Below are positions 18,102 through 50,651 of a DNA stretch of 64,000 nucleotides, piece after piece. The translations under genes were made by a program, and so were the position numbers. The notes below the pieces were generated by a model. The model saw only the letters and a program-made list of their open reading frames with translations, was not told the DNA's origin and searched no databases. The stretch comes from Thalassovita autumnalis (lineage in GTDB: Bacteria > Pseudomonadota > Alphaproteobacteria > Rhodobacterales > Rhodobacteraceae): the NCBI RefSeq assembly GCF_001458255.1, contig NZ_CYSB01000036.1, forward strand, positions 62,001 to 126,000. Direction: 5' to 3'. The first letter of the stretch is position 1, and each line of letters starts with the position of its first letter.

Positions 18102-18344
18102 TTACTGGCCGTCTTCGGCATCCATCTGCTCCAGCATCTTGCGGGCGCGTGGGCAGGCCAGGCGTTCGCGCAGCGGGCTGTCAGGATCGATCTCTTTCTT
18201 GCAGACCAGACATTGATCCGCATCCGAGATTGCATTCAACCCACCGCAGCTGCCCTTGATCCGCTTGCCCATCAGCATGACGCCCAGCGACATGCCGAGC
18301 ATAACCACGCAGAAAAAACCAAAGGTGAACAGGAATGTTTCCAC
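18102..18344 (-). CDS. nqrM: Na+-NQR maturation protein NqrM
   Basis: 80 residues. One N-terminal membrane segment (METFLFTFGFFCVVMLGMSL) is followed by IKGSCGGLNAI and DQCLVCKKE. The three cysteines (in SCGG and CLVC) are those thought to carry iron for the membrane iron site between NqrD and NqrE. NqrM is known to be required for assembly of active Na+-NQR. It follows apbE on the same strand with 15 bases between, and both are next to nqrABCDEF. Confidence 0.93.
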   Translation of the reverse strand: METFLFTFGFFCVVMLGMSLGVMLMGKRIKGSCGGLNAISDADQCLVCKKEIDPDSPLRERLACPRARKMLEQMDAEDGQ

Positions 18345-18359
18345 GGTGTTCGGTCCTGA

Positions 18360-19379
18360 TTAGGCTTGCAACGCGTCGAAACGCGGGCTCGCAGTGGTGA
18401 CGAAGTCGTTGGTGCCGCGTTCAATGAAGAGAACGGCAAGGTTCTGTTCTTTGGCGATTTCCATGCCGCGGTCCTTGCCCAGAACCAGCATCGCAGTGGC
18501 CCAAGCGTCTGCCAGCATGGCGTTTTCTGCCAGCACGGTAGCCGAGGTGGTGCGGTGGGTCACGGGACGGCCGGTTTTGGCGTCCAGAATATGCGAGAAG
18601 CGCTTACCGTCCTGCTCAAAGTAGTTGCGGTAGTCACCCGAGGTGGCCAGACCCATGTTCGACAGACCTACAACCTGCTGCAGCGCGGGCGATGCGGCCA
18701 GCGGGGTCTCAACACCGATGCGCCAGTCCATGCCATCTGGGTTTTTGCCAGCGGTGACGATGTCGCCGCCGACTTCGACCATGTAGTCTTGCAGACCTAG
18801 TGCCGCCAGCGCTTTGCCTGCGGCGTCTACACCGAAGCCTTTGCCGATCGCAGAGAGATACACAGTCGCATCCGCGTTGCGTTTTGCGACTTGATTTCCG
18901 CGAATCTCCAGCACGTTTTTCTGACCGGTCGCGGCTGCGATGCGGGTGATTTCCGCCTCAGCAGGGGCTGCGTTGGTTGCGCCATTGGCCCCAAAGCCCC
19001 ACAGATCGATCAGCGGACCGAGAGTGACGTCAAATTGGCCGTCGCTCAGCGCGTTGATGTCCTGGGCGGCGTTCAAAACCTCGGCCAGCTCAGCCGAAAC
19101 GGTCATCGGCGCGGTGCTGTTCGAAGCGTTCAGGCGCGACACTTCCGAGCCGGAATCCCAGTTGGACATCAGGGTGTTAACACGGGCGAAGGCCATGTTG
19201 ACGGCATCCTGAGCCTGAGCTTCGGTTACGGCGTTTTTGTGGTCAACTGCGGTAATCTTATACGTCGTGCCCATGGTTACACCCGACAGCTCAATCACGC
19301 GCGAGCGCGATTGGCAGGCGGCCAGCGCCAGGGGGAGCCACAGAACGGTACGGCGGGAGAATTTGATGCTTTGGGTCAC
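18360..19379 (-). CDS. apbE: FAD:protein FMN transferase (ApbE)
   Basis: 339 residues from GTG 19379. The N-terminus has FSRRTVLWLPLALAACQS, a twin-Arg-like lipoprotein signal with lipobox LAAC, so it is probably a periplasmic lipoprotein. ApbE signatures follow: GTTYKI, LSDGQFDVTLGPL, YLSAIGKGFGVD, and a C-terminal FSHILDAKTGRPV with the metal-binding Asp and TSATVLAENAMLADAWAT. It attaches FMN from FAD to threonine in NqrB and NqrC. The reading frame is open far upstream (to 20234) antisense to nqrA; the signal peptide fixes the true start. Confidence 0.93.
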   Translation of the reverse strand: MTQSIKFSRRTVLWLPLALAACQSRSRVIELSGVTMGTTYKITAVDHKNAVTEAQAQDAVNMAFARVNTLMSNWDSGSEVSRLNASNSTAPMTVSAELAEVLNAAQDINALSDGQFDVTLGPLIDLWGFGANGATNAAPAEAEITRIAAATGQKNVLEIRGNQVAKRNADATVYLSAIGKGFGVDAAGKALAALGLQDYMVEVGGDIVTAGKNPDGMDWRIGVETPLAASPALQQVVGLSNMGLATSGDYRNYFEQDGKRFSHILDAKTGRPVTHRTTSATVLAENAMLADAWATAMLVLGKDRGMEIAKEQNLAVLFIERGTNDFVTTASPRFDALQA

Positions 19380-19556
19380 GAGGAGACTCTCTTGTTTGCT
19401 GGGCAGACGTATACGCACCCGCGCGGGCAGTGACTTGCGACATATTGACGCAATCTGTGTTTGGCCCGTGTTTACCCCTTTGACATCGACTATCCGGTGC
19501 CCCGAAATGGGCGGCGAACCCCCTCGCGCGCCCGTGTCAGCGAAAGCGTAGTGGAC
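19380..19556. promoter_or_regulatory. Divergent promoter region of apbE and nqrA
   Basis: 177 bases between the two divergent start codons. Two -35-like hexamers on the plus strand, TTGACG (19445-19450) and TTGACA (19480-19485), face nqrA, but no good -10 box is seen for either. No operator-like palindrome stands out. Confidence 0.35.
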
Positions 19557-20900
19557 GTGCAGCAGTTTATACTGAAAAAAGGCCTCGCCCTCCCTGTGAC
19601 CGGAGCACCGGATCAGGGGGATGTTACCCCAATCGATGTGAAGAACGTCGCCGTGCTTGGCGCCGACTACATCGGTCTCAAACCTCGTTTGGCAGTGCAG
19701 GAAGGCGACGTTGTTGCCACTGGCGCGCCAATCTTTGCCCATAAGGACACGCCTGACGTCAAAGTCGTGGCACCGGTGTCTGGTCGGGTGAAGGCGGTCA
19801 ACCGTGGCGCCCGCCGCGCCCTGATCAGCGTTGAGATCGAAGTGGACGCCGATGCGGCCGCGCCGGTGGACTTCTCCGCCGTTGGTGACATCGCAACCGC
19901 AGAGGGGCTGGCTGAACGGCTCTGTGCTGCGGGTCTGTGGACGTCCTTCCGCACCCGGCCCTATTCCAAGGTGCCTGATCCGGCGTCGCGTCCGGCTGCC
20001 CTTTATGTGACGGCAATGGATTCGGAACCGCTGGCGGGGGATGCTGCCAAGATCATCGCGCTGGCACCGGATGCGTTCCGCAAAGGTCTGGAGGCGATCG
20101 CGGGTCTGAGCGAAGGCAAAACCTACCTCTGTCAGGAAATCGGGGCCGATGTGCCCGGTGGTGATCTGAACGGGGTTGAGGCCGTTGGCTTTTCTGGGCC
20201 GCACCCGGCGGGACTTGCAGGTACACACATGCACTTCCTTGAGCCGCCGACTGCTGCAAAAACCGTTTGGACCATTGGCTATCAGGATGTGATTGCCATC
20301 GGCCGCCTGCTGGAAACCGGCACCTATGACGCGACCCGCGTTGTGGCGCTGACCGGCCCGCTGATGAAACAGCCCCGTCTGGTGCAGACCGTTGCCGGTG
20401 CATCCATGGTTGAGCTGCTGGCCGAGGATCTGGAAACCGACGTGCCCGTGCGCATGATTTCGGGGTCGATCCTGTCAGGCCGCGCCGGCGAAGGCCCCAG
20501 CGCCTATCTGGGCCGCTATGCGCGCCAGATCACCCTGATCGAAGAAGACCAGAAACAGATCCCGATGGGTTGGATCCGCCCGATGGCGTCGAAATACGCG
20601 GTGCAGCCGGTTCTGGGCTCTGCCTTCTCGAAGAAGCTTTACGCTTTGACCTCTAACCTGAACGGTGGCCGCCGCGCCATGGTGCCGCTGGGCACCTTCG
20701 AAGAGCTGATGCCGCAGGACTTCCTGCCAACGCAGCTGGTGCGCTCCATGCTGATCATGGACACCGACCAGGCACAGGCCCTCGGGGCCCTGGAACTCGA
20801 CGAAGAGGATCTGGGTCTCATTGGGTTTGCCTGTCCCGCGAAATATGAATACGGCGATGCGCTCCGCGATTGCCTCACCAAGATCGAGAAGGAGGGCTAA
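19557..20900 (+). CDS. nqrA: Na+-translocating NADH:quinone reductase subunit A
   Basis: About 447 residues from GTG 19557 (VQQFILKKGLALPV); GTG 19551 is an equally possible start and neither has a strong ribosome binding site. Length matches NqrA (~446). Family features are the N-terminal lipoyl-like hammerhead region (VGADYIGLKP, VVAPVSGRVKAVNRGARR) and the C-terminal EDLGLIGFACPAKYEYG. Peripheral cytoplasmic subunit near the quinone site of the complex. First of six co-directional genes with very short spacing. Confidence 0.95.
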   Translation: MQQFILKKGLALPVTGAPDQGDVTPIDVKNVAVLGADYIGLKPRLAVQEGDVVATGAPIFAHKDTPDVKVVAPVSGRVKAVNRGARRALISVEIEVDADAAAPVDFSAVGDIATAEGLAERLCAAGLWTSFRTRPYSKVPDPASRPAALYVTAMDSEPLAGDAAKIIALAPDAFRKGLEAIAGLSEGKTYLCQEIGADVPGGDLNGVEAVGFSGPHPAGLAGTHMHFLEPPTAAKTVWTIGYQDVIAIGRLLETGTYDATRVVALTGPLMKQPRLVQTVAGASMVELLAEDLETDVPVRMISGSILSGRAGEGPSAYLGRYARQITLIEEDQKQIPMGWIRPMASKYAVQPVLGSAFSKKLYALTSNLNGGRRAMVPLGTFEELMPQDFLPTQLVRSMLIMDTDQAQALGALELDEEDLGLIGFACPAKYEYGDALRDCLTKIEKEG

Positions 20901-42041: not shown

Positions 42042-42326
42042 ATGACAGTGATGGTCATCGCAGAGCTGACGCCCGTACCGGGACAGGGGGAGGTGCTGCG
42101 CCGCGCAGTGCAGACCCTGACCGTGGCCAGCCGGGGCGAAGAGGGCTGCCTGTCCTACCGTCCGCTGCTTGATCCGGCGCGGCCGGGCACAATTGTGATC
42201 CTGGAAACCTGGCGCGATGCCGAGGCTTTGGCCAGCCATGGCAAGACCGAGGCAATGGCGCAGTTCAAGGCGGCGATCAAAGGTGCCGAGGTGGTGGTTA
42301 CACGGCACCGGATTTCCCCCGCTTAG
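42042..42326 (+). CDS. ABM (antibiotic biosynthesis monooxygenase)-domain protein
   Basis: 94 residues, one ferredoxin-like ABM domain. SRGEEGCLSYRPLLDP and VILETWRDAEALASHG are typical of the YgiN/LsrG group. LsrG, an ABM-fold protein, works after LsrF-type steps in AI-2 breakdown, so finding one with an LsrF-type aldolase and a SorC regulator is noteworthy. It starts one base after the GMC stop and ends the operon with TAG. Confidence 0.85.
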   Translation: MTVMVIAELTPVPGQGEVLRRAVQTLTVASRGEEGCLSYRPLLDPARPGTIVILETWRDAEALASHGKTEAMAQFKAAIKGAEVVVTRHRISPA

Positions 42327-42711: not shown

Positions 42712-42762
42712 ATGAGCAATCCAGAAATGCTGGGCGGCAAAGAAAGCCGCCGTTTGTAGCGG

Positions 42763-44538
42763 TTGAAGTACCGTTTGCGTATTGGCTGGCGCGAACCAAC
42801 AGCGTTGATCGGTGTGCTGCTGACGGTGCTGTTTGCCTATCTGATCGTCGTGCCGATCATCTCGCTACTGTATGACTCGATCGAAATTCAGTTTGGCGAT
42901 GGCCGTCGGGCCGGTGGCCAGATGGGGGATCTGACCACCTATTATTTTGACCGGGCTCTGTTTTCGCCGGTGGCCAGTGATCTGTTCTGGGAACCACTTT
43001 CGCATACGCTGTCGGTGTCTGCCGGGGCGATCACCCTGTCGCTGAGCATCGGGGGCATGTTGGCCTGGCTCTTGGCGCGGACGGATATGTTTGCGCGCCG
43101 CTGGTTCGCCACCGCGTTGATCGTGCCCTATATGCTGCCCAGCTGGACCTTTGCGCTGGCCTGGCGCACCCTGTTCAAGAACCGCGAGGTTGGGGGGCAG
43201 CCGGGGTGGCTGGAATCGATGGGCTACACGCCGCCGGATTGGCTGGCCTATGGGCAGGTGCCGATCACGGTTATTCTGGCCCTGCATTACACCCCTTTTG
43301 TGATCCTGCTCTTTGGCAATGCCCTGCGCCGTTTTGACAGCCAGCTGGAAGATTCCGCGCGTATTTTGGGCGCCAAACCGGGCACCGTGGCGCGCCAGAT
43401 CATCCTGCCACTGATGCTGCCGGCGCTGATGTCGGCGACCGTGCTGATCTTTGCCAAATGTCTGGGGGAGTTCGGTGTGTCTTACGTGCTGGGCCTGCCG
43501 GTGGACTATGATGTGCTGGCGACCTCGCTCTATCGTTCGATCAGTTCACGTCAGCCCGGTGTGGCGGCGGTGATTGCCATGGCGATCCTGTTGATCGGTG
43601 TGGTGTCGCTGCTGATTGATGCAAGGCTGGTGCGCGAAAGCCGCCGCTTTGTCACCGTGGGCGGCAAAGGATCGATGAACCGCAAAACCCGGCTGGGGAT
43701 CTACCGTCTGCCAGCCACGGCGATTGCCGCGATCATCTTTGTGCTGTCGGTCTGCCTGCCGCTGTTTGTGCTGATGGCATCGACCGTCATGAAGGTGCCG
43801 GGCCTCTTTGCCTGGGATAACTTCACGCTGGATTACTGGATCGGCGAAAACCTCGACACCGTCGCCTATACCACCGGCATTCTCTATACGTCCGACCTTT
43901 GGAATGCGATGTGGAGCACATTGCGCATCGTGGGCTTTGCCTCACTTTGCAGCGGCCTCCTGGGCCTGTTGGTCGGCTATGTTGTCGTGCGCTCCCCCGT
44001 GCGACCGGTGGGCAGTTTCCTGCGCCAGGTTACGTTCTTCCCATACCTGGTACCTGGGATCGCTTTTGCGGCTGCCTACCTTTCTTTGTTTGCGGTGCCA
44101 CGTGGACCAATCCCGGCCCTTTATGGCACCGCAGCGATCCTGATCCTGGCGCTGATGGCGGATCAGATGCCCTATGCCAGCCGGGCCGGGATCTCGGCGA
44201 TGATGCAGCTGGGCAAAGACCCTGAGGAGGCCGCGCAGGTGGCCGGCGCCGGGTGGTTCCGCCGGATGATCGCAGTGGTTATCCCGATCCAGAAGGGGGC
44301 GCTGGTCGCAGGTGTGATCCTGCCGTTCATTTCGGGGATCCGCGGCCTCAGCCTGTTTGTGATCCTCGCGGTGCCGGGCACCGATGTGCTGACCACGTTT
44401 TCGCTGCGCCTGTTGGATTACAACTACACACAAGCCGCCAATGCGATTGTGCTGATCATCTCGGCCATTGCCTACTTCGGCACGCTGGCGGCGCAGAAAA
44501 TCACCAAAACAAACCTCGCTGACGGATTGGGGGGATAA
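42763..44538 (+). CDS. AfuB/FbpB-like ABC transporter permease (two fused permease domains); in-frame amber codon near the 5' end
   Basis: 591 residues from TTG 42763, about 12 membrane segments in two homologous halves. Each half has an EAA-type loop (SARILGAKPGTVARQIILP near residue 200; EEAAQVAGAGWFRRMI near 490), as in FbpB and the hexose-phosphate permease AfuB. TTG 42763 lacks a good ribosome binding site. The same frame starts at ATG 42712 with GAGGG at ideal spacing, but after 15 codons (MSNPEMLGGKESRRL) it meets TAG at 42757-42759. Either the original N-terminus is cut off by a nonsense change, or the upstream ORF is a short leader. Membrane subunit of the importer encoded at 42763-46848. 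Confidence 0.85.
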   Translation: MKYRLRIGWREPTALIGVLLTVLFAYLIVVPIISLLYDSIEIQFGDGRRAGGQMGDLTTYYFDRALFSPVASDLFWEPLSHTLSVSAGAITLSLSIGGMLAWLLARTDMFARRWFATALIVPYMLPSWTFALAWRTLFKNREVGGQPGWLESMGYTPPDWLAYGQVPITVILALHYTPFVILLFGNALRRFDSQLEDSARILGAKPGTVARQIILPLMLPALMSATVLIFAKCLGEFGVSYVLGLPVDYDVLATSLYRSISSRQPGVAAVIAMAILLIGVVSLLIDARLVRESRRFVTVGGKGSMNRKTRLGIYRLPATAIAAIIFVLSVCLPLFVLMASTVMKVPGLFAWDNFTLDYWIGENLDTVAYTTGILYTSDLWNAMWSTLRIVGFASLCSGLLGLLVGYVVVRSPVRPVGSFLRQVTFFPYLVPGIAFAAAYLSLFAVPRGPIPALYGTAAILILALMADQMPYASRAGISAMMQLGKDPEEAAQVAGAGWFRRMIAVVIPIQKGALVAGVILPFISGIRGLSLFVILAVPGTDVLTTFSLRLLDYNYTQAANAIVLIISAIAYFGTLAAQKITKTNLADGLGG

Positions 44539-44541
44539 CCG

Positions 44542-45690
44542 ATGCCGACGATCAAGCTGACTTCGGTCGACAAACAATATGACAAGAGCAGCCCCGTAAA
44601 AGCGGTGGATGATCTGAACCTTGAAATCGGTGATGGCGAGTTCATGTGCCTGCTTGGCCCATCGGGCTGCGGCAAGACCAACACGCTGCGGATGATTGCG
44701 GGTCTGGAAAACCTGTCCGAGGGCGCGATCCAGGTGGGGGAGCGTCTGGTCGACAGCGCGAATGACGGGGTGTTTGTGCCACCTGAAAAACGTGGCATGG
44801 GGCTGGTGTTTCAGTCTTACGCGCTGTGGCCGCATCTGACGATTGAGCGCAACACCGACTTTGGTTTGCGCCTGCGCAAAGTGCCGAAAGCTGAGCGGGA
44901 AGAGCGTGTGAACCACGTGATGAAGACGCTGGGGATTGAGCAATATCGCGATCGCTACCCCTCACAGCTGTCGGGTGGACAACAGCAGCGGGTTGCCTTG
45001 GCGCGGATGCTGGCGGTGAACCCTGAGGTGCTGCTACTGGATGAGCCGCTGTCGAACCTTGATGCCCGGTTGCGTCTGGAAATGCGGGCGGAGCTGAAGC
45101 GCATTCACAGCGCCTTTGGCACCACCATCGTCTGTGTGACCCACGACCAGTGGGAGGCGATGACACTGGCGACCCAGATCGCTGTGATGAACCAGGGCAC
45201 CCTGCAGCAGGTGGGCACGCCCGAAGATATTTATGACCGCCCCGCCAACCGTTTTGTGGCCGAGTTTGTCGGCAGCCCGCCGATCAACATCGTTGAGATG
45301 CATGATGGCGGTGACGCTGGGTTGCGTCAGGCGCTGCGAGCGCATTTGCAGGGGGATTATGCCCATGGGGCCGAGATTGCCTCGGTCGGGATGCGGCCTG
45401 AGAACATCCAGATTGCAGCTTCGCCTGCGGCGGTTTCGGACAGCGATTTCCAGCGTCCGATGGTCGTCACCGCGGTGCTGCCAACTGGGGGCAGCTGGAT
45501 TGTCGAGATGGAGGATAACGGCAGCCAGCTTTTTGCAACCACCAACCAGCCGCCAGTGCTGAACGCGGGGGATAAAGGCGTCTACAGCCTGGCCCCCGGG
45601 GCGATGCACAGCTTTGACGGCAAGGGCGCGCGGTTGCAGCCGCTGGCAGAGGAGGCCAGAGCAACACAAAACATCCGAGTGGCGGGTTAA
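44542..45690 (+). CDS. ABC transporter ATP-binding protein (AfuC/FbpC-like)
   Basis: 382 residues. Walker A GPSGCGKTNTLR (Asn follows the usual Lys-Thr), Q-loop QSYALWPHLT, signature LSGGQQQRVALARM, Walker B VLLLDEPLSNLD and switch His in CVTHDQWEAM. A C-terminal TOBE-type region (~280-380) is present, as in the FbpC/PotA/MalK group. It follows the permease by three bases and precedes the binding protein. No amber codon interrupts this gene. Confidence 0.93.
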   Translation: MPTIKLTSVDKQYDKSSPVKAVDDLNLEIGDGEFMCLLGPSGCGKTNTLRMIAGLENLSEGAIQVGERLVDSANDGVFVPPEKRGMGLVFQSYALWPHLTIERNTDFGLRLRKVPKAEREERVNHVMKTLGIEQYRDRYPSQLSGGQQQRVALARMLAVNPEVLLLDEPLSNLDARLRLEMRAELKRIHSAFGTTIVCVTHDQWEAMTLATQIAVMNQGTLQQVGTPEDIYDRPANRFVAEFVGSPPINIVEMHDGGDAGLRQALRAHLQGDYAHGAEIASVGMRPENIQIAASPAAVSDSDFQRPMVVTAVLPTGGSWIVEMEDNGSQLFATTNQPPVLNAGDKGVYSLAPGAMHSFDGKGARLQPLAEEARATQNIRVAG

Positions 45691-45723
45691 CCGCCACCGG
45701 GCACCAACGTGGAGGAGAAGACT

Positions 45724-46848
45724 ATGAAAAAGATGACCAAAAATCTGTTAAAAAACAGTTGCCTGGCTGGTGTAGCCCTGGGCGCGATGGTTGGGGCCGC
45801 TCAGGCTGAGGAGTTCAACATCGATGCCTTGATCGAAGCCGCCAAAGCCGAGCCGGGGATCACCATCTACGCCAGCACCGGCAAAATCAAAAAGGCCGCT
45901 GCCGCCTTCACCGAGCTTTACGGGATTGAGGCGACAGGCACCAAGGTGAAGGGCGCCGCGCAGATCGAACTGGTGGTGCGTGAGGCGCAGGCCCGCAACA
46001 TCGTCGGTGATGTGATCATCTCCTCGGACGCGGGTGCCGCGCTGGCACAGCTGCTGCCGTCGGGCATCGTGGCCAGCTGGACCCCGCCGGATCTGGCGGG
46101 CGATATTCGTGACGACAGCAAAGACCCGCTTGTGGTCTGGCGTGATCCGTCGCTTTGGACCTACAACAACGAAGACGGCGGCGCCTGCCCGGTTTCCAAC
46201 ATCTGGGAGCTGACCGGCGAGGAGTGGGCCCGTCGTGTCACCATGGAAGATCCGCTGAACAAGCCGTCGTTCATTGACTGGTTCAACCAGATGGAAATGC
46301 ATGGCGATGATAAGATGGCCGCGGCCTATGAGGCGCATTTTGGCAAGGCGCTGGACACCTCTGGCCAAAGCGCAACCAAAACATGGGTGCAGATGATCGC
46401 GGCCAACGCCCCTTTGCTGACCGACAGCTCATCCGGCGCGGCCGAGGCGATTGGCACCCGGGGGCAGGATAAGCCGTTCTTTGGTTTGGTGGCTTCGGCC
46501 AAGTACCGTGATGTCAGCCCCGAAGGTCTGGCCATGGCCCCCTGTGAGGGCATTGAGCCTTCGATCGGGTTCGCCAAACCGGGCTACGGTCTGATCGCAG
46601 ATGGCACCGACAGCCCCAATGCGGCGAAACTGTTCCTGCACTATATGATGACGTAGGACGGCGTGATGCCGATGACTTCGGATGGCAAACTGTCGGGTAA
46701 TGGCGCCGTGCCTGCCAACCCCAAGGATATTTCCAACGCCGCCGCTTTGGTGGATGACCTGACCCCACATATCGCGGCCACGGGCATGGATGACTTCGAC
46801 CTGCGGCAGGACTGGCAGGGTTTCTGGCGCATCCACTACAAGCGCTAA
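45724..46848 (+). pseudogene. AfuA/FbpA-like periplasmic binding protein, interrupted by an in-frame amber codon at 46654
   Basis: Signal peptide ends VGAAQA-E; ATG 45724 follows GGAGGAG. The uninterrupted part is 310 residues and stops at TAG 46654-46656 right after AAKLFLHYMMT. The very same frame stays open for 64 more codons (DGVMPMTSDGKLSGNG ... DDFDLRQDWQGFWRIHYK), whose content is what the family shows at its C-terminus. Full length would be about 374 residues. AfuA binds hexose phosphates and FbpA ferric iron; the residues here do not decide. A single C-to-T or G-to-T change (from CAG or GAG) would explain the stop. Real nonsense mutation, readthrough and sequence error are all possible. 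Confidence 0.8.
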
Positions 46849-46904
46849 GTGAAATGGGGTGGCTGCCAATGTGGCGGCCACCTGACCCAGTGATTGAGAA
46901 TGAC

Positions 46905-47777
46905 ATGAGCCAAGCCACCCCTGAAACCAGTGTTGAGATGCCTGCCGGGTTTGACCCTGAAGAAAGTGCGCAGCTGCGCGCGGTGGCGATTGCTGCGGCG
47001 ATGGCCGTGGCACCGGGGCTTAAGGCGGCGTTCCGGTCCAAGATGGTGGTCGATTTCAAAAATGACCTGCGTGACATTGTCACCGAACACGACCGCGCTG
47101 CCGAAGTGGCAATCACCGAACACCTGTTGGCTGCAGTGCCGCAGTCCGAGGTTCTGGGCGAAGAAGGGGGCCTGCGTGGCAGCGGGCCGGTGCGCTGGTA
47201 TGTCGATCCCATTGACGGCACGGCAAATTTTGCCCGAGGGCTGCCGAACTGGTGCATCTCCATCGGGGCGGTTGTGGACGGTCAAATCGTGGCGGGTGTG
47301 ATCGTTGACCCGATGGGCGGCAATGTGTTTAGCGCGGATCTGCGGGGGGCTTACCTGAATGACGCCCCGATGCGGTCCAATGCAGCGCAGGAGGCGCGGT
47401 TCGCCACGCTGATTTCCAGCTACCCGGCGGCCCGCGATTTCGCTGCGGACGGCAAAGCGGCCGCGCTGGAGGACTTTGGCCAGTTGGTTGAGGGGTTTTC
47501 CTCCGTGCGTCGCAACGGCAGCGCTGCTTTGGGGCTGGCTCATGTGGCGGCGGGCTGGGCGGATGCCGCGGCTGGGTTTGGCATCAATGCCTGGGATGTG
47601 ACCGCGGCCGTGTTGATTTTACGCCAGTCTGGCGGGCGCTATCTGCCTTTTGCCTATGGCCAGACCCCGGCGGCAGAGCCGGCCTTTGTACATCCCGGCT
47701 ACATCGCCATCGGGGGAGGCGGCGACTATCCGTTTTTGTCCCAAACCTGGGCCCGTATCGCGGCGTCGCGATCCTAA
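46905..47777 (+). CDS. Inositol-monophosphatase-family phosphatase (first of tandem pair)
   Basis: 290 residues from ATG 46905 (a frame extension to 46854 reads into the gap). Metal site: GEEGG, then DPIDGTANFARG, and later INAWDVTAAVLI, the three Mg2+-binding motifs of the FIG/IMPase superfamily. Members hydrolyse inositol phosphates, fructose-1,6-bisphosphate, histidinol phosphate or PAP. The gene follows the AfuABC-like importer by 56 bases, so its substrate may be what the importer brings in or a product of it. About the same length as the next gene and clearly paralogous. Confidence 0.9.
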   Translation: MSQATPETSVEMPAGFDPEESAQLRAVAIAAAMAVAPGLKAAFRSKMVVDFKNDLRDIVTEHDRAAEVAITEHLLAAVPQSEVLGEEGGLRGSGPVRWYVDPIDGTANFARGLPNWCISIGAVVDGQIVAGVIVDPMGGNVFSADLRGAYLNDAPMRSNAAQEARFATLISSYPAARDFAADGKAAALEDFGQLVEGFSSVRRNGSAALGLAHVAAGWADAAAGFGINAWDVTAAVLILRQSGGRYLPFAYGQTPAAEPAFVHPGYIAIGGGGDYPFLSQTWARIAASRS

Positions 47778-47821: not shown

Positions 47822-48694
47822 ATGACCCATCCATCGGCGACTAACACCCTGACGCAAGTGAGCGAAGCGCGGCTTTCAGATGCCGAAGCGCTGGATCTGC
47901 GCGCGGACTTCTGTCTGCAGCTGATCCGGCAGGCGGGCGATGTGGCGTTGGACGGTTTTGCGCGCCAGGTTCAGGGGCAGGCCGCAGGGCAGGCGGGCCA
48001 ACCACTGGCGACCAAAGGCCCGCAGGATTTCTTGACCGAGACCGATTTGGCTGTCGAAGAGTTTATCCGCGCGCAGGTGGCAGAGGCCTTTCCTGCTGAT
48101 GGGTTCTTTGGGGAAGAAACAGGCCAAGCCGCGGGGGACGCTATCTGGATCGTTGACCCGATCGATGGCACCGCAAATTTTGCCCGCGCCATCCCACATT
48201 ATTGCATCGCAATCGCGCTGGTGCTGCGCGGTCAGCTGGAATTTGGCGCGATCTACGCCCCCAGCACGGATGAGATTTACTGGGCACGGCGCGGGGCTGG
48301 GGCCTACCGCAATCAAACCCGGCTGAGCGTGGCCGCAACGCAGGATGTGGCGCAGGCGACCTATGAGCTGGGCTGGTCAAATCGGCAAAGCAATCAGGCA
48401 TATTTGGATATTCTCGCCCAACTGCTGGACGGCGGCGTCAACGTGCGCCGCGCTGCATCCGGGGCCTTGGCGCTGGCCTATGTGGCGGACGGGCGCTCAG
48501 ATGGCTATGCCGAATTGGATATGAACGCCTGGGACTGTCTGGCGGGATTGCTGATGGTGGCTGAGGCCGGCGGCATCGTTGGCGGCACAGCGCTGAGCGG
48601 CGATTTGACCAGCGGGGGGGCCGTTTTGGCGGTGGCGCCGGGGGTTTCAGACCTGTTGATCCGCGCCAGTGGCATTGCGCCGCAAGACGCCTGA
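47822..48694 (+). CDS. Inositol-monophosphatase-family phosphatase (second of tandem pair)
   Basis: 290 residues. Motifs FFGEETGQ, VDPIDGTANFARA and LDMNAWDCLAGLLM give a complete Mg2+ site. Divergent from its neighbour outside these motifs, so the pair is an old duplication or two related enzymes for different substrates. AAGAGA precedes the ATG. It is the last plus-strand gene before the convergent LacI regulator, nine bases away. Sugar-phosphate or inositol-phosphate hydrolysis is inferred; CysQ or HisN functions are alternatives. Confidence 0.9.
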   Translation: MTHPSATNTLTQVSEARLSDAEALDLRADFCLQLIRQAGDVALDGFARQVQGQAAGQAGQPLATKGPQDFLTETDLAVEEFIRAQVAEAFPADGFFGEETGQAAGDAIWIVDPIDGTANFARAIPHYCIAIALVLRGQLEFGAIYAPSTDEIYWARRGAGAYRNQTRLSVAATQDVAQATYELGWSNRQSNQAYLDILAQLLDGGVNVRRAASGALALAYVADGRSDGYAELDMNAWDCLAGLLMVAEAGGIVGGTALSGDLTSGGAVLAVAPGVSDLLIRASGIAPQDA

Positions 48695-48703
48695 TCACTG
48701 TAT

Positions 48704-49720
48704 TTACCGCGGTCTGACAGACCCGCGCCAAACCGGGTGGGCGACAAACCGCGTGGGGGGCGGCACTGTCTCAAGCGCAGGCTGCGGTTCGTTGATCAAC
48801 TGGGTGATATGCTGCGTGATCTCATCCAGCGGCTGGCGGAAGGTGGTCAGGTTATAACTGCTCCAGCCGGCCTGTTCGATGTCATCAAAGCCGATCACAC
48901 ACAGCTCCTCGGGCACTTTTAAGCCAAACTCATTGCGGGCCACATCCATGAAGCCGCAGGCCAGAAGATCGGTGATGCAAAAGGCGCCATCGGGGTGGTT
49001 TTGCCCACTAAACAGCCGCCGCGCCACTTCGGCCCCAGAGGCATAGGTTGAGGCACCGCTGCGGGTCACGGTGACATCGACGCCCTGTGCATTGGCTTCC
49101 TCCACAAAGGCGGTTTCCCGTGCCAAGAGGCTGGGCGTGCCCACGTCCGAGGCCACCAGCGCGATGGTCTGACAGCCCACCCGGTGTAACATGTGAAAGG
49201 CTTCCCGCGCCGACGCCCGGTTGGAGATCATGATGTTTTCGGTGCCTGAAACGCTCTGGTCTCGGTTGGCAACGATCACTCGCTGGCCACTGCGCACACA
49301 GGTTTCAATCAAGGCCTCATCAGGCTGGCCCGACAGAACTACCGAGGCATCCGCCCGATAATAAAGCGTTTGACGCAGCGCACGGTTTACCCCGCTGTCG
49401 CCCGAGGCATTGACGATCATCACCACCTTGTTGGCGGCCTGCAAATCGCGGGTCAGGATTTCAATGAACTTCGACTGATAGGGCGATGCCATATCGGCGG
49501 CGACCAGACAGACAATATTGCTGTTTTCCTGGATCAAACCGCGGGCCAGATGATTGACGTGGTAGCCCAGCGTATCGGCCGCTGCCATGACCTTGTCGCG
49601 TGTCGCCTTGGAGACCGAGGCCCCTTCGGTAAAGGTGCGCGACACCGCCGATCTGGATACGCCAGCCAGCTCTGCAACCTGCTGGGCGCTGACAAAAGAC
49701 TTGCCTGATTTGTCTTTCAT
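48704..49720 (-). CDS. LacI-family transcriptional regulator of the importer/phosphatase regulon
   Basis: 338 residues. The N-terminal HTH SAQQVAELAGVSRSAVSRTF is followed by TRDKVMAAADTLGYHVNHLARGL (hinge), then a type 1 periplasmic-binding-like sensor domain (NIVCLVAADMASPYQ; CVIGFDDIEQAGW). ATG 49720 follows AGAGAAG; the open frame extends to 49846 through the operator region and is not used. The related palindromes at 42533, 49747 and 49925 are its probable operators, so it likely represses the importer operon, itself and the divergent phosphatase gene. Confidence 0.92.
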   Translation of the reverse strand: MKDKSGKSFVSAQQVAELAGVSRSAVSRTFTEGASVSKATRDKVMAAADTLGYHVNHLARGLIQENSNIVCLVAADMASPYQSKFIEILTRDLQAANKVVMIVNASGDSGVNRALRQTLYYRADASVVLSGQPDEALIETCVRSGQRVIVANRDQSVSGTENIMISNRASAREAFHMLHRVGCQTIALVASDVGTPSLLARETAFVEEANAQGVDVTVTRSGASTYASGAEVARRLFSGQNHPDGAFCITDLLACGFMDVARNEFGLKVPEELCVIGFDDIEQAGWSSYNLTTFRQPLDEITQHITQLINEPQPALETVPPPTRFVAHPVWRGSVRPR

Positions 49721-49746
49721 GCGGCTTCTCTGGTTTGACCAATTAT

Positions 49747-49762
49747 GTGCACGGCTGTGCAG
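49747..49762. promoter_or_regulatory. LacI-type operator upstream of the lacI gene
   Basis: GTGCACGGCTGTGCAG differs from the perfect palindrome at 42533 in three positions. It lies 27-42 bases upstream of the regulator's start codon, which suggests autoregulation. Confidence 0.7.
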
Positions 49763-49924
49763 GGAGGGTGGTGCCTTGCGGGTCACCACCAGGGTTGGGC
49801 CAAGCATAGCCGTAGGAATGTAACGATTCAATGACGATGGCAGCACTTGCGCCGGTCGAAATTGTTGTTGTTTCCCTTCAATTCAGTGAGAAAATACTGG
49901 CGTCAAAGGTTGCGACGGGCTAAT

Positions 49925-49988: not shown

Positions 49989-50651
49989 ATGACCAAACAG
50001 CAAACTGAAGTGACAGACCCCAGCGCAAAAGCTGCGGCGCAAAAGGCAAATGTGCCCTTTATAGAACGCCCCCCGCTGACCTTGATTGCGCAGGGCGTGG
50101 GGCCGGAGAAGGTTGACCTCTATATCGGGGGGACCGAGGGCGCGCGGGATGTTGGCCAATTGCAGGACCTCGGGATCACCACGGTGATCAACTGCGCGGT
50201 TAATCTGGACATCAACTATGTCACCGAACCCAAGTTGCAGGCCGACGGGGACAAGCGTGCCACCGGCATGGCGCCCATTCGCTGCTACAAAATCGGCTTG
50301 GTCGATGGCCCGGGCAATCCGCGCGACATGTTGCTGGGCGGTTATTTCATTCTGGAAAGCGCGCTGAGCCAGCAGATTCCGGAAAAAGCCTCATACCCTG
50401 TGCGGGATCGCGGTCACGTGTTGGTGCATTGTCGCGGTGGGCGCAGCCGGTCGGTTGCGCTGGTGGCATTGTTCCTGCACAAAGATCAGCCTGAGCGCTT
50501 CGCAACTTTGGACGATGCAATCGCCCATATACGTGACAAACGCGACTTGCATCCGGATGAATGGTTTGAAACCCCGAAACAGGTGCTGATCGACGCCGCC
50601 GAACATGCGGCAAACGCAATAGACCTGCTGCGTGCCCCCACTGCGGGGTAG
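49989..50651 (+). CDS. Dual-specificity/tyrosine phosphatase-like protein
   Basis: 220 residues. Catalytic loop VHCRGGRSRSVALV has the C-x5-R signature (Cys in HC, Arg six residues on), and a likely general-acid Asp in GLVDGPGNPRD. N-terminal VDLYIGGTEGARDVGQLQDLGITTVINCA is the usual DSP start. ATG 49989 follows AGGAAG. Its upstream LacI-type operator ties it to the importer/IMPase genes, so a small phosphorylated metabolite may be its substrate rather than a protein. Followed after 21 bases by the DUF475 gene. Confidence 0.82.
   Translation: MTKQQTEVTDPSAKAAAQKANVPFIERPPLTLIAQGVGPEKVDLYIGGTEGARDVGQLQDLGITTVINCAVNLDINYVTEPKLQADGDKRATGMAPIRCYKIGLVDGPGNPRDMLLGGYFILESALSQQIPEKASYPVRDRGHVLVHCRGGRSRSVALVALFLHKDQPERFATLDDAIAHIRDKRDLHPDEWFETPKQVLIDAAEHAANAIDLLRAPTAG

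Follow-up and report, generated by a model that had tools for sequence, protein, structure and literature searches.

Why should one importer operon contain two in-frame amber codons? The question is raised by a stretch of 64,000 nucleotides of Thalassovita autumnalis (contig NZ_CYSB01000036.1, positions 62,001 to 126,000), hereafter the window. It holds an operon for an ATP-binding cassette (ABC) importer in which one TAG stands near the start of the permease frame and another near the end of the gene for the substrate-binding protein (SBP). The genes follow in the order fused permease, ATPase, SBP and two phosphatase-like genes, and the BPD_transp_1 and ABC_tran domains score above their gathering scores (83.5 and 114.3 bits), which identifies the products as ABC importer components. 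We lean, with modest confidence, towards two young and natural nonsense mutations in the operon, which are predicted to cripple the importer. The case looks like ordinary recent gene damage and not like a special reading of the code.

The second amber, in the SBP gene, is present where the first-pass annotation had placed it, and alignment with relatives shows a protein that is by all appearance truncated, since all 38 distinct close relatives have a sense residue at the stop column and share a C-terminal motif. Matches had to reach E 1e-80 to be counted, and frames identical over their last 300 residues were dropped. It had been considered that binding proteins of relatives might end at this TAG; none does, as 38/38 continue through it, and the alignments of 10 more distant relatives (L040–L049) also continue past the stop. 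The in-frame extension was said to run for 64 codons; the count is 63 sense codons (46657–46845) followed by TAA. Its description as family-like holds, with 44/63 and 42/63 residues matching those of the nearest relatives, L054 and L055, and the frame is coding-like (score 0.26, GC3 0.78). As for the other end of the gene, ATG 45724 has a ribosome-binding site and GTG 45709 does not. In the predicted model of the intact SBP of L054, helices 283–290, 311–317, 323–331 and 333–343 fall at the stop position (residue 283 of the model) or beyond it, with pLDDT of 92–98, and solved structures aligned to the SBP span the lost part.

Among 54 genes called in the window by a simple script, coding-like in-frame extensions were found for eight. 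Six of these are the next listed gene in the same frame and one is a short second open frame, which leaves the SBP as the sole remaining case. A locus on the minus strand (18104–20234) mimics readthrough as well: a gene (18360–20234) is followed by a same-frame open frame of 85 codons, and the two look like neighbouring genes, which we take to be ApbE- and NqrM-like. Dating the stop by its open frame was tried and rejected, because neutral change (~20–25 substitutions) leaves the 63 codons open in 54–59% of trials; with about half of random neutral trials staying open, openness is no evidence.

Comparison of evolutionary rates provides moderate evidence that the SBP tail, after the stop, has been less constrained on the lineage of the window. 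The branch of the window is 0.454 for the tail vs 0.124 for the front in a tree of 37 sequences, and 0.450 vs 0.130 in a tree of 39; the ratio is the highest on both trees, and 0.454 was reached by none of 150 simulated tails. The excess of the window over L054 and L055 was +0.217 in the tail (95% interval 0.075 to 0.411), while the largest excess among 63-residue stretches lying wholly in the front was 0.086. Moreover, the window departs from columns invariant in all others at 2/12 positions after the stop and 0/32 before it; the same test with each of the 38 others in turn gave 3/383 and 23/1239, respectively. For the permease the excess was 0.000 (−0.026 to 0.027) and for the ATPase +0.007 (−0.035 to 0.048), the ATPase test leaving out four distant ATPases and the second set of L054.

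Several results nevertheless weigh against inactivation of the importer. The tail excess is, on these counts, not cleanly tied to the stop: residues 266–288, which precede it, have an excess of +0.109 and the last 21 residues one of +0.040, neither being significant. Changes at columns where the five nearest relatives agree number 7/40 in the tail vs 10/143 in the front (Fisher p 0.06), and the interval for the tail comes out as nan when the full set of 36 outgroups is used. Pairwise dN/dS of tail vs front is 0.214 vs 0.129 for L054–L055 and 0.228 vs 0.132 for the window and L054. It was rejected as a deciding test, the L054–L055 tail being equally raised and synonymous sites being near saturation. 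The SBP front itself has no excess (−0.014, −0.077 to 0.045), and if the tail had been neutral long enough to gather its own, a dead SBP front should show an excess too. Its absence favours either a shortened SBP that works or a recent stop.

Constraint was thus not found to be lost across the whole gene or operon. The front, permease and ATPase intervals all span 0, tree distances agree with nil excess in the three, and an old pseudogene is thereby excluded while a young one is not. Operon decay, one of the explanations put forward in the first pass, is borne out only in part, as the permease, the ATPase and the SBP front have no excess of changes. There is firm evidence from these rates that the remaining operon is not in long-standing decay, and any loss would have to be young.

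The amber of the permease differs in kind. It is present after 15 codons as annotated, and the claim that ATG 42712 has a good ribosome-binding site and that TTG 42763 lacks one is borne out by duplex energies of −8.8 and −1.1 kcal/mol, computed with an assumed 16S tail. Contrary to what had been stated, further in-frame starts follow TTG 42763, namely TTG 42775, TTG 42805 and GTG 42814. The leaders of 11 permease relatives differ in length and sequence, so the stop removes no conserved permease sequence. The notion that homologous permeases begin at the 42763 position is half true: two of the 11 (L054 and L060) have ATG in that column, although upstream of the stop column the frame is open in every one of the 11. 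Two (L056 and L060) carry ATG in the very column of the stop. The two relatives with ATG at the TTG column make a restart there plausible. A strong site at ATG 42712 with none at TTG 42763 would fit termination followed by restart and not fresh initiation. Hence the first stop may be of little consequence. A 111-nt stretch around the short hairpin before the leader stop folds no better than its shuffles (z −0.87).

The ATPase gene between the two ambers had been called intact. Its frame is open indeed, but the last residue of Walker A is unusual, being Asn47 in the window and Thr in all 19 other aligned sequences. In the same genome, the 32 Walker A motifs read from the best-scoring 30 of 134 ABC_tran matches end in Thr (28), Ser (2), Met (1) or Gln (1) and never in Asn. 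Thr47Asn would be a third odd change in the operon and adds to the case for inactivation.

Genome-wide recoding, a suppressor tRNA and pyrrolysine were all tested, and none is supported. The gene for release factor 1 (RF1) is intact, prfA matching its model with 490.7 bits (cut-off 423.25) and without internal stop. The search for a suppressor tRNA that had been proposed gave no CUA anticodon among 51 tRNAs (Rfam RF00005, all anticodons read), a model that an aberrant tRNA could escape. No PylS was found in the genome above the cut-off, the best match having 28 bits against 178.15, and none of 229 transporter-domain matches (134 + 82 + 13 from three families) has a stop inside the matched stretch, a set that includes the ATPase and permease domains of the operon itself. 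As noted earlier, TAG terminates frames in the ordinary way at 42326 and at 50651, and three of 54 window genes end in it, one being this SBP. The first-pass view that genome-wide recoding is unlikely is therefore upheld. The window has no Rfam match; elsewhere in the genome, five tandem tRNA-Gly (GCC) genes of equal score were seen (G000:C9:2160-2697).

Taken together, the following course is proposed. Ribosomes arriving at the ATG 42712 site would terminate at TAG 42757, and some of them would restart at TTG 42763, one codon on, to make a nearly complete permease; the leader stop would most likely cost some permease through this forced restart. RF1 would read TAG 46654 as a stop, giving an SBP of 310 residues that lacks the C-terminal 63 residues and with them four predicted helices. 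Import would be weak or absent, and the importer is predicted to be probably crippled. Such an inactivation should be young because the remaining operon has as yet no relaxed constraint.

The main rival, for which we see a clearly smaller chance, is that the SBP is shortened and still works. It would bind and deliver its ligand without the C-terminal helices, the permease would be made from TTG 42763, and selection would still act on the operon, with drift confined to the untranslated tail. Such a protein accounts somewhat better for a fast tail beside a front, permease and ATPase at normal rate. Even when truncated, the window SBP is given a fold by structure prediction (mean pLDDT 92.0, pTM 0.84), and the ATG of two permease relatives at the TTG 42763 column points the same way. 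Nevertheless, none of the 38 relatives ends at the stop, the lost part contains invariant residues, drift is not clear in the last 21 codons, and the Walker A change argues against full function. Model confidence at block 231–240 also falls without the tail, from 92 in the full-length L054 model to 70 in the truncated window model, these jobs differing in sequence and alignment. Were this explanation true, the C-terminal helices of this fold would be dispensable. A sequencing or assembly error, by which one or both stops are absent from the organism, is improbable. It would demand two separate substitutions in one operon with neither site in a homopolymer, in a genome of completeness 100 and contamination 0.1 where the 229 transporter-domain matches have no internal stop, and a read error at the stop would not give rise to the faster tail. 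In its favour, the assembly is a draft in 48 contigs, and many internal-stop pseudogenes are such errors according to the accessible part of PMC11017572.

Amber readthrough or suppression, in which some ribosomes decode TAG and give full-length permease and SBP, is the least likely of the three and very improbable. Beyond the SBP stop the frame stays open, looks coding and has the same end as in relatives, the terminal motif is largely kept, the SBP front is under constraint, and in-frame stops with dN/dS below 1 are described for many bacterial genes (PMC7918605, accessible part). Yet such openness is what over half of neutral trials give, and two changes at columns invariant in 38/38 relatives together with the fast tail argue against a translated tail. 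With RF1 intact, neither a CUA tRNA nor a PylS above the cut-off and no stop in the 229 domain matches, readthrough of both ambers is unlikely. We give just as slim a hearing to a related idea, that low-level and useful readthrough of the SBP amber yields a small amount of full-length protein next to the short form, so that the stop would act as a dial on import, with the leader amber and restart doing likewise for the permease. Readthrough, if true, would be a rare instance in which a bacterium that lacks a suppressor tRNA uses ambers as a brake. Under the preferred explanation of two young nonsense mutations, the locus is mainly a caution: two ambers in one operon resemble recoding, yet they come down to an unconserved leader and one truncation under normal constraint elsewhere.

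The distribution of the SBP sets a limit on dating. None of eight other genomes of the genus carries it (query of 218 residues), and the stops are therefore not datable from a close strain. Matches were found in 18/394 genomes of the family (E 1e-40) and 7/390 of the order (E 1e-80), the own genome being included in both and the two draws overlapping. Plasmid records gave 159 matches, all below 60% identity with a query that ended at the stop. The carriers of the nearest operons are, among named relatives, Rhodobacteraceae; L067 and L068 (23% and 26% identity) were left out of the 15 relative loci. No second SBP copy was found in the genome, which has 4.36 Mb. Another contig (G000:C39:193072-196129) carries a second and distant importer set, made up of an SBP, a fused permease with 30% identity and an ATPase. 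In many relatives (L057–L065, L050–L052 and L119–L123) more than one SBP gene, two or three in tandem, stands beside one permease and ATPase; the SBP gene is single in the window and in L054–L056.

Features of the importer operon and its surroundings, with positions in the window
Feature	Positions	Strand	Remark
Permease leader	42712..42759	+	15 codons, ends in TAG 42757-42759
Short GC hairpin directly before the leader TAG	42733..42751	+	perfect, six pairs
Fused permease, from TTG 42763	42763..44538	+	two BPD_transp_1 stretches; 82-84% identity to L054, L055, L056
ABC ATPase	44542..45690	+	open frame
Asn47 codon of the ATPase, at the last position of Walker A	44680..44682	+	from alignment
SBP, 310 residues	45724..46656	+	from ATG 45724, ended by TAG 46654-46656
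In-frame codons (63) after the SBP TAG, then TAA	46657..46848	+	match C-terminus of relatives
Phosphatase-like neighbour	46854..47777	+	adjoins operon in relatives too
Second phosphatase-like neighbour	47822..48694	+	same type as 46854..47777
Presumed LacI-type regulator	48704..49846	-	adjoins operon in relatives too

The first of the two phosphatase-like neighbours is presumably of the inositol-monophosphatase type, and the gene that follows the second we take to be a LacI-type regulator, beyond which lies another phosphatase-like gene. Phosphatase-like genes and the regulator adjoin the operon in many relatives. With such neighbours, a phosphorylated ligand becomes a reasonable guess for the SBP.

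No Pfam or NCBIfam model matched the SBP at E 0.001, and a single-sequence search of the PDB found no solved relative at E 0.1. A profile search gave weak matches to iron-type SBPs, and the predicted fold is of the FbpA/AfuA type, which groups it with binders of iron, metal-citrate and sugar phosphate. AfuABC imports hexose and heptose phosphates (accessible part of PMC4546632), and by analogy the ligand of the window SBP may be, for example, a sugar phosphate. The likeness to importers of the FbpA/AfuA/MctA type (AfuABC: PMC4546632 and PMC8427247, accessible parts) is nevertheless distant, the window SBP being only ~14–17% identical. PhnU2/PhnT2, a putative 2-aminoethylphosphonate importer (TIGR03262/TIGR03265), is the best named match of the permease and among the best of the ATPase, but the scores stay far under the curated cut-offs: 134.6 bits for the permease, where 593.25 are required, and 331.8 bits for the ATPase, where 457.7 are. 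As for the stops, the accessible part of PMC7918605 describes many bacterial genes that carry in-frame stops yet have dN/dS below 1, such stops being mostly short-lived. The window has likewise an in-frame TAG where relatives are intact and the remainder is still constrained; it differs from the cases given there in that a single operon has two stops, the first of which falls in a leader not conserved among relatives. As far as that account goes, the window case fits the pattern of the short-lived in-frame stop.

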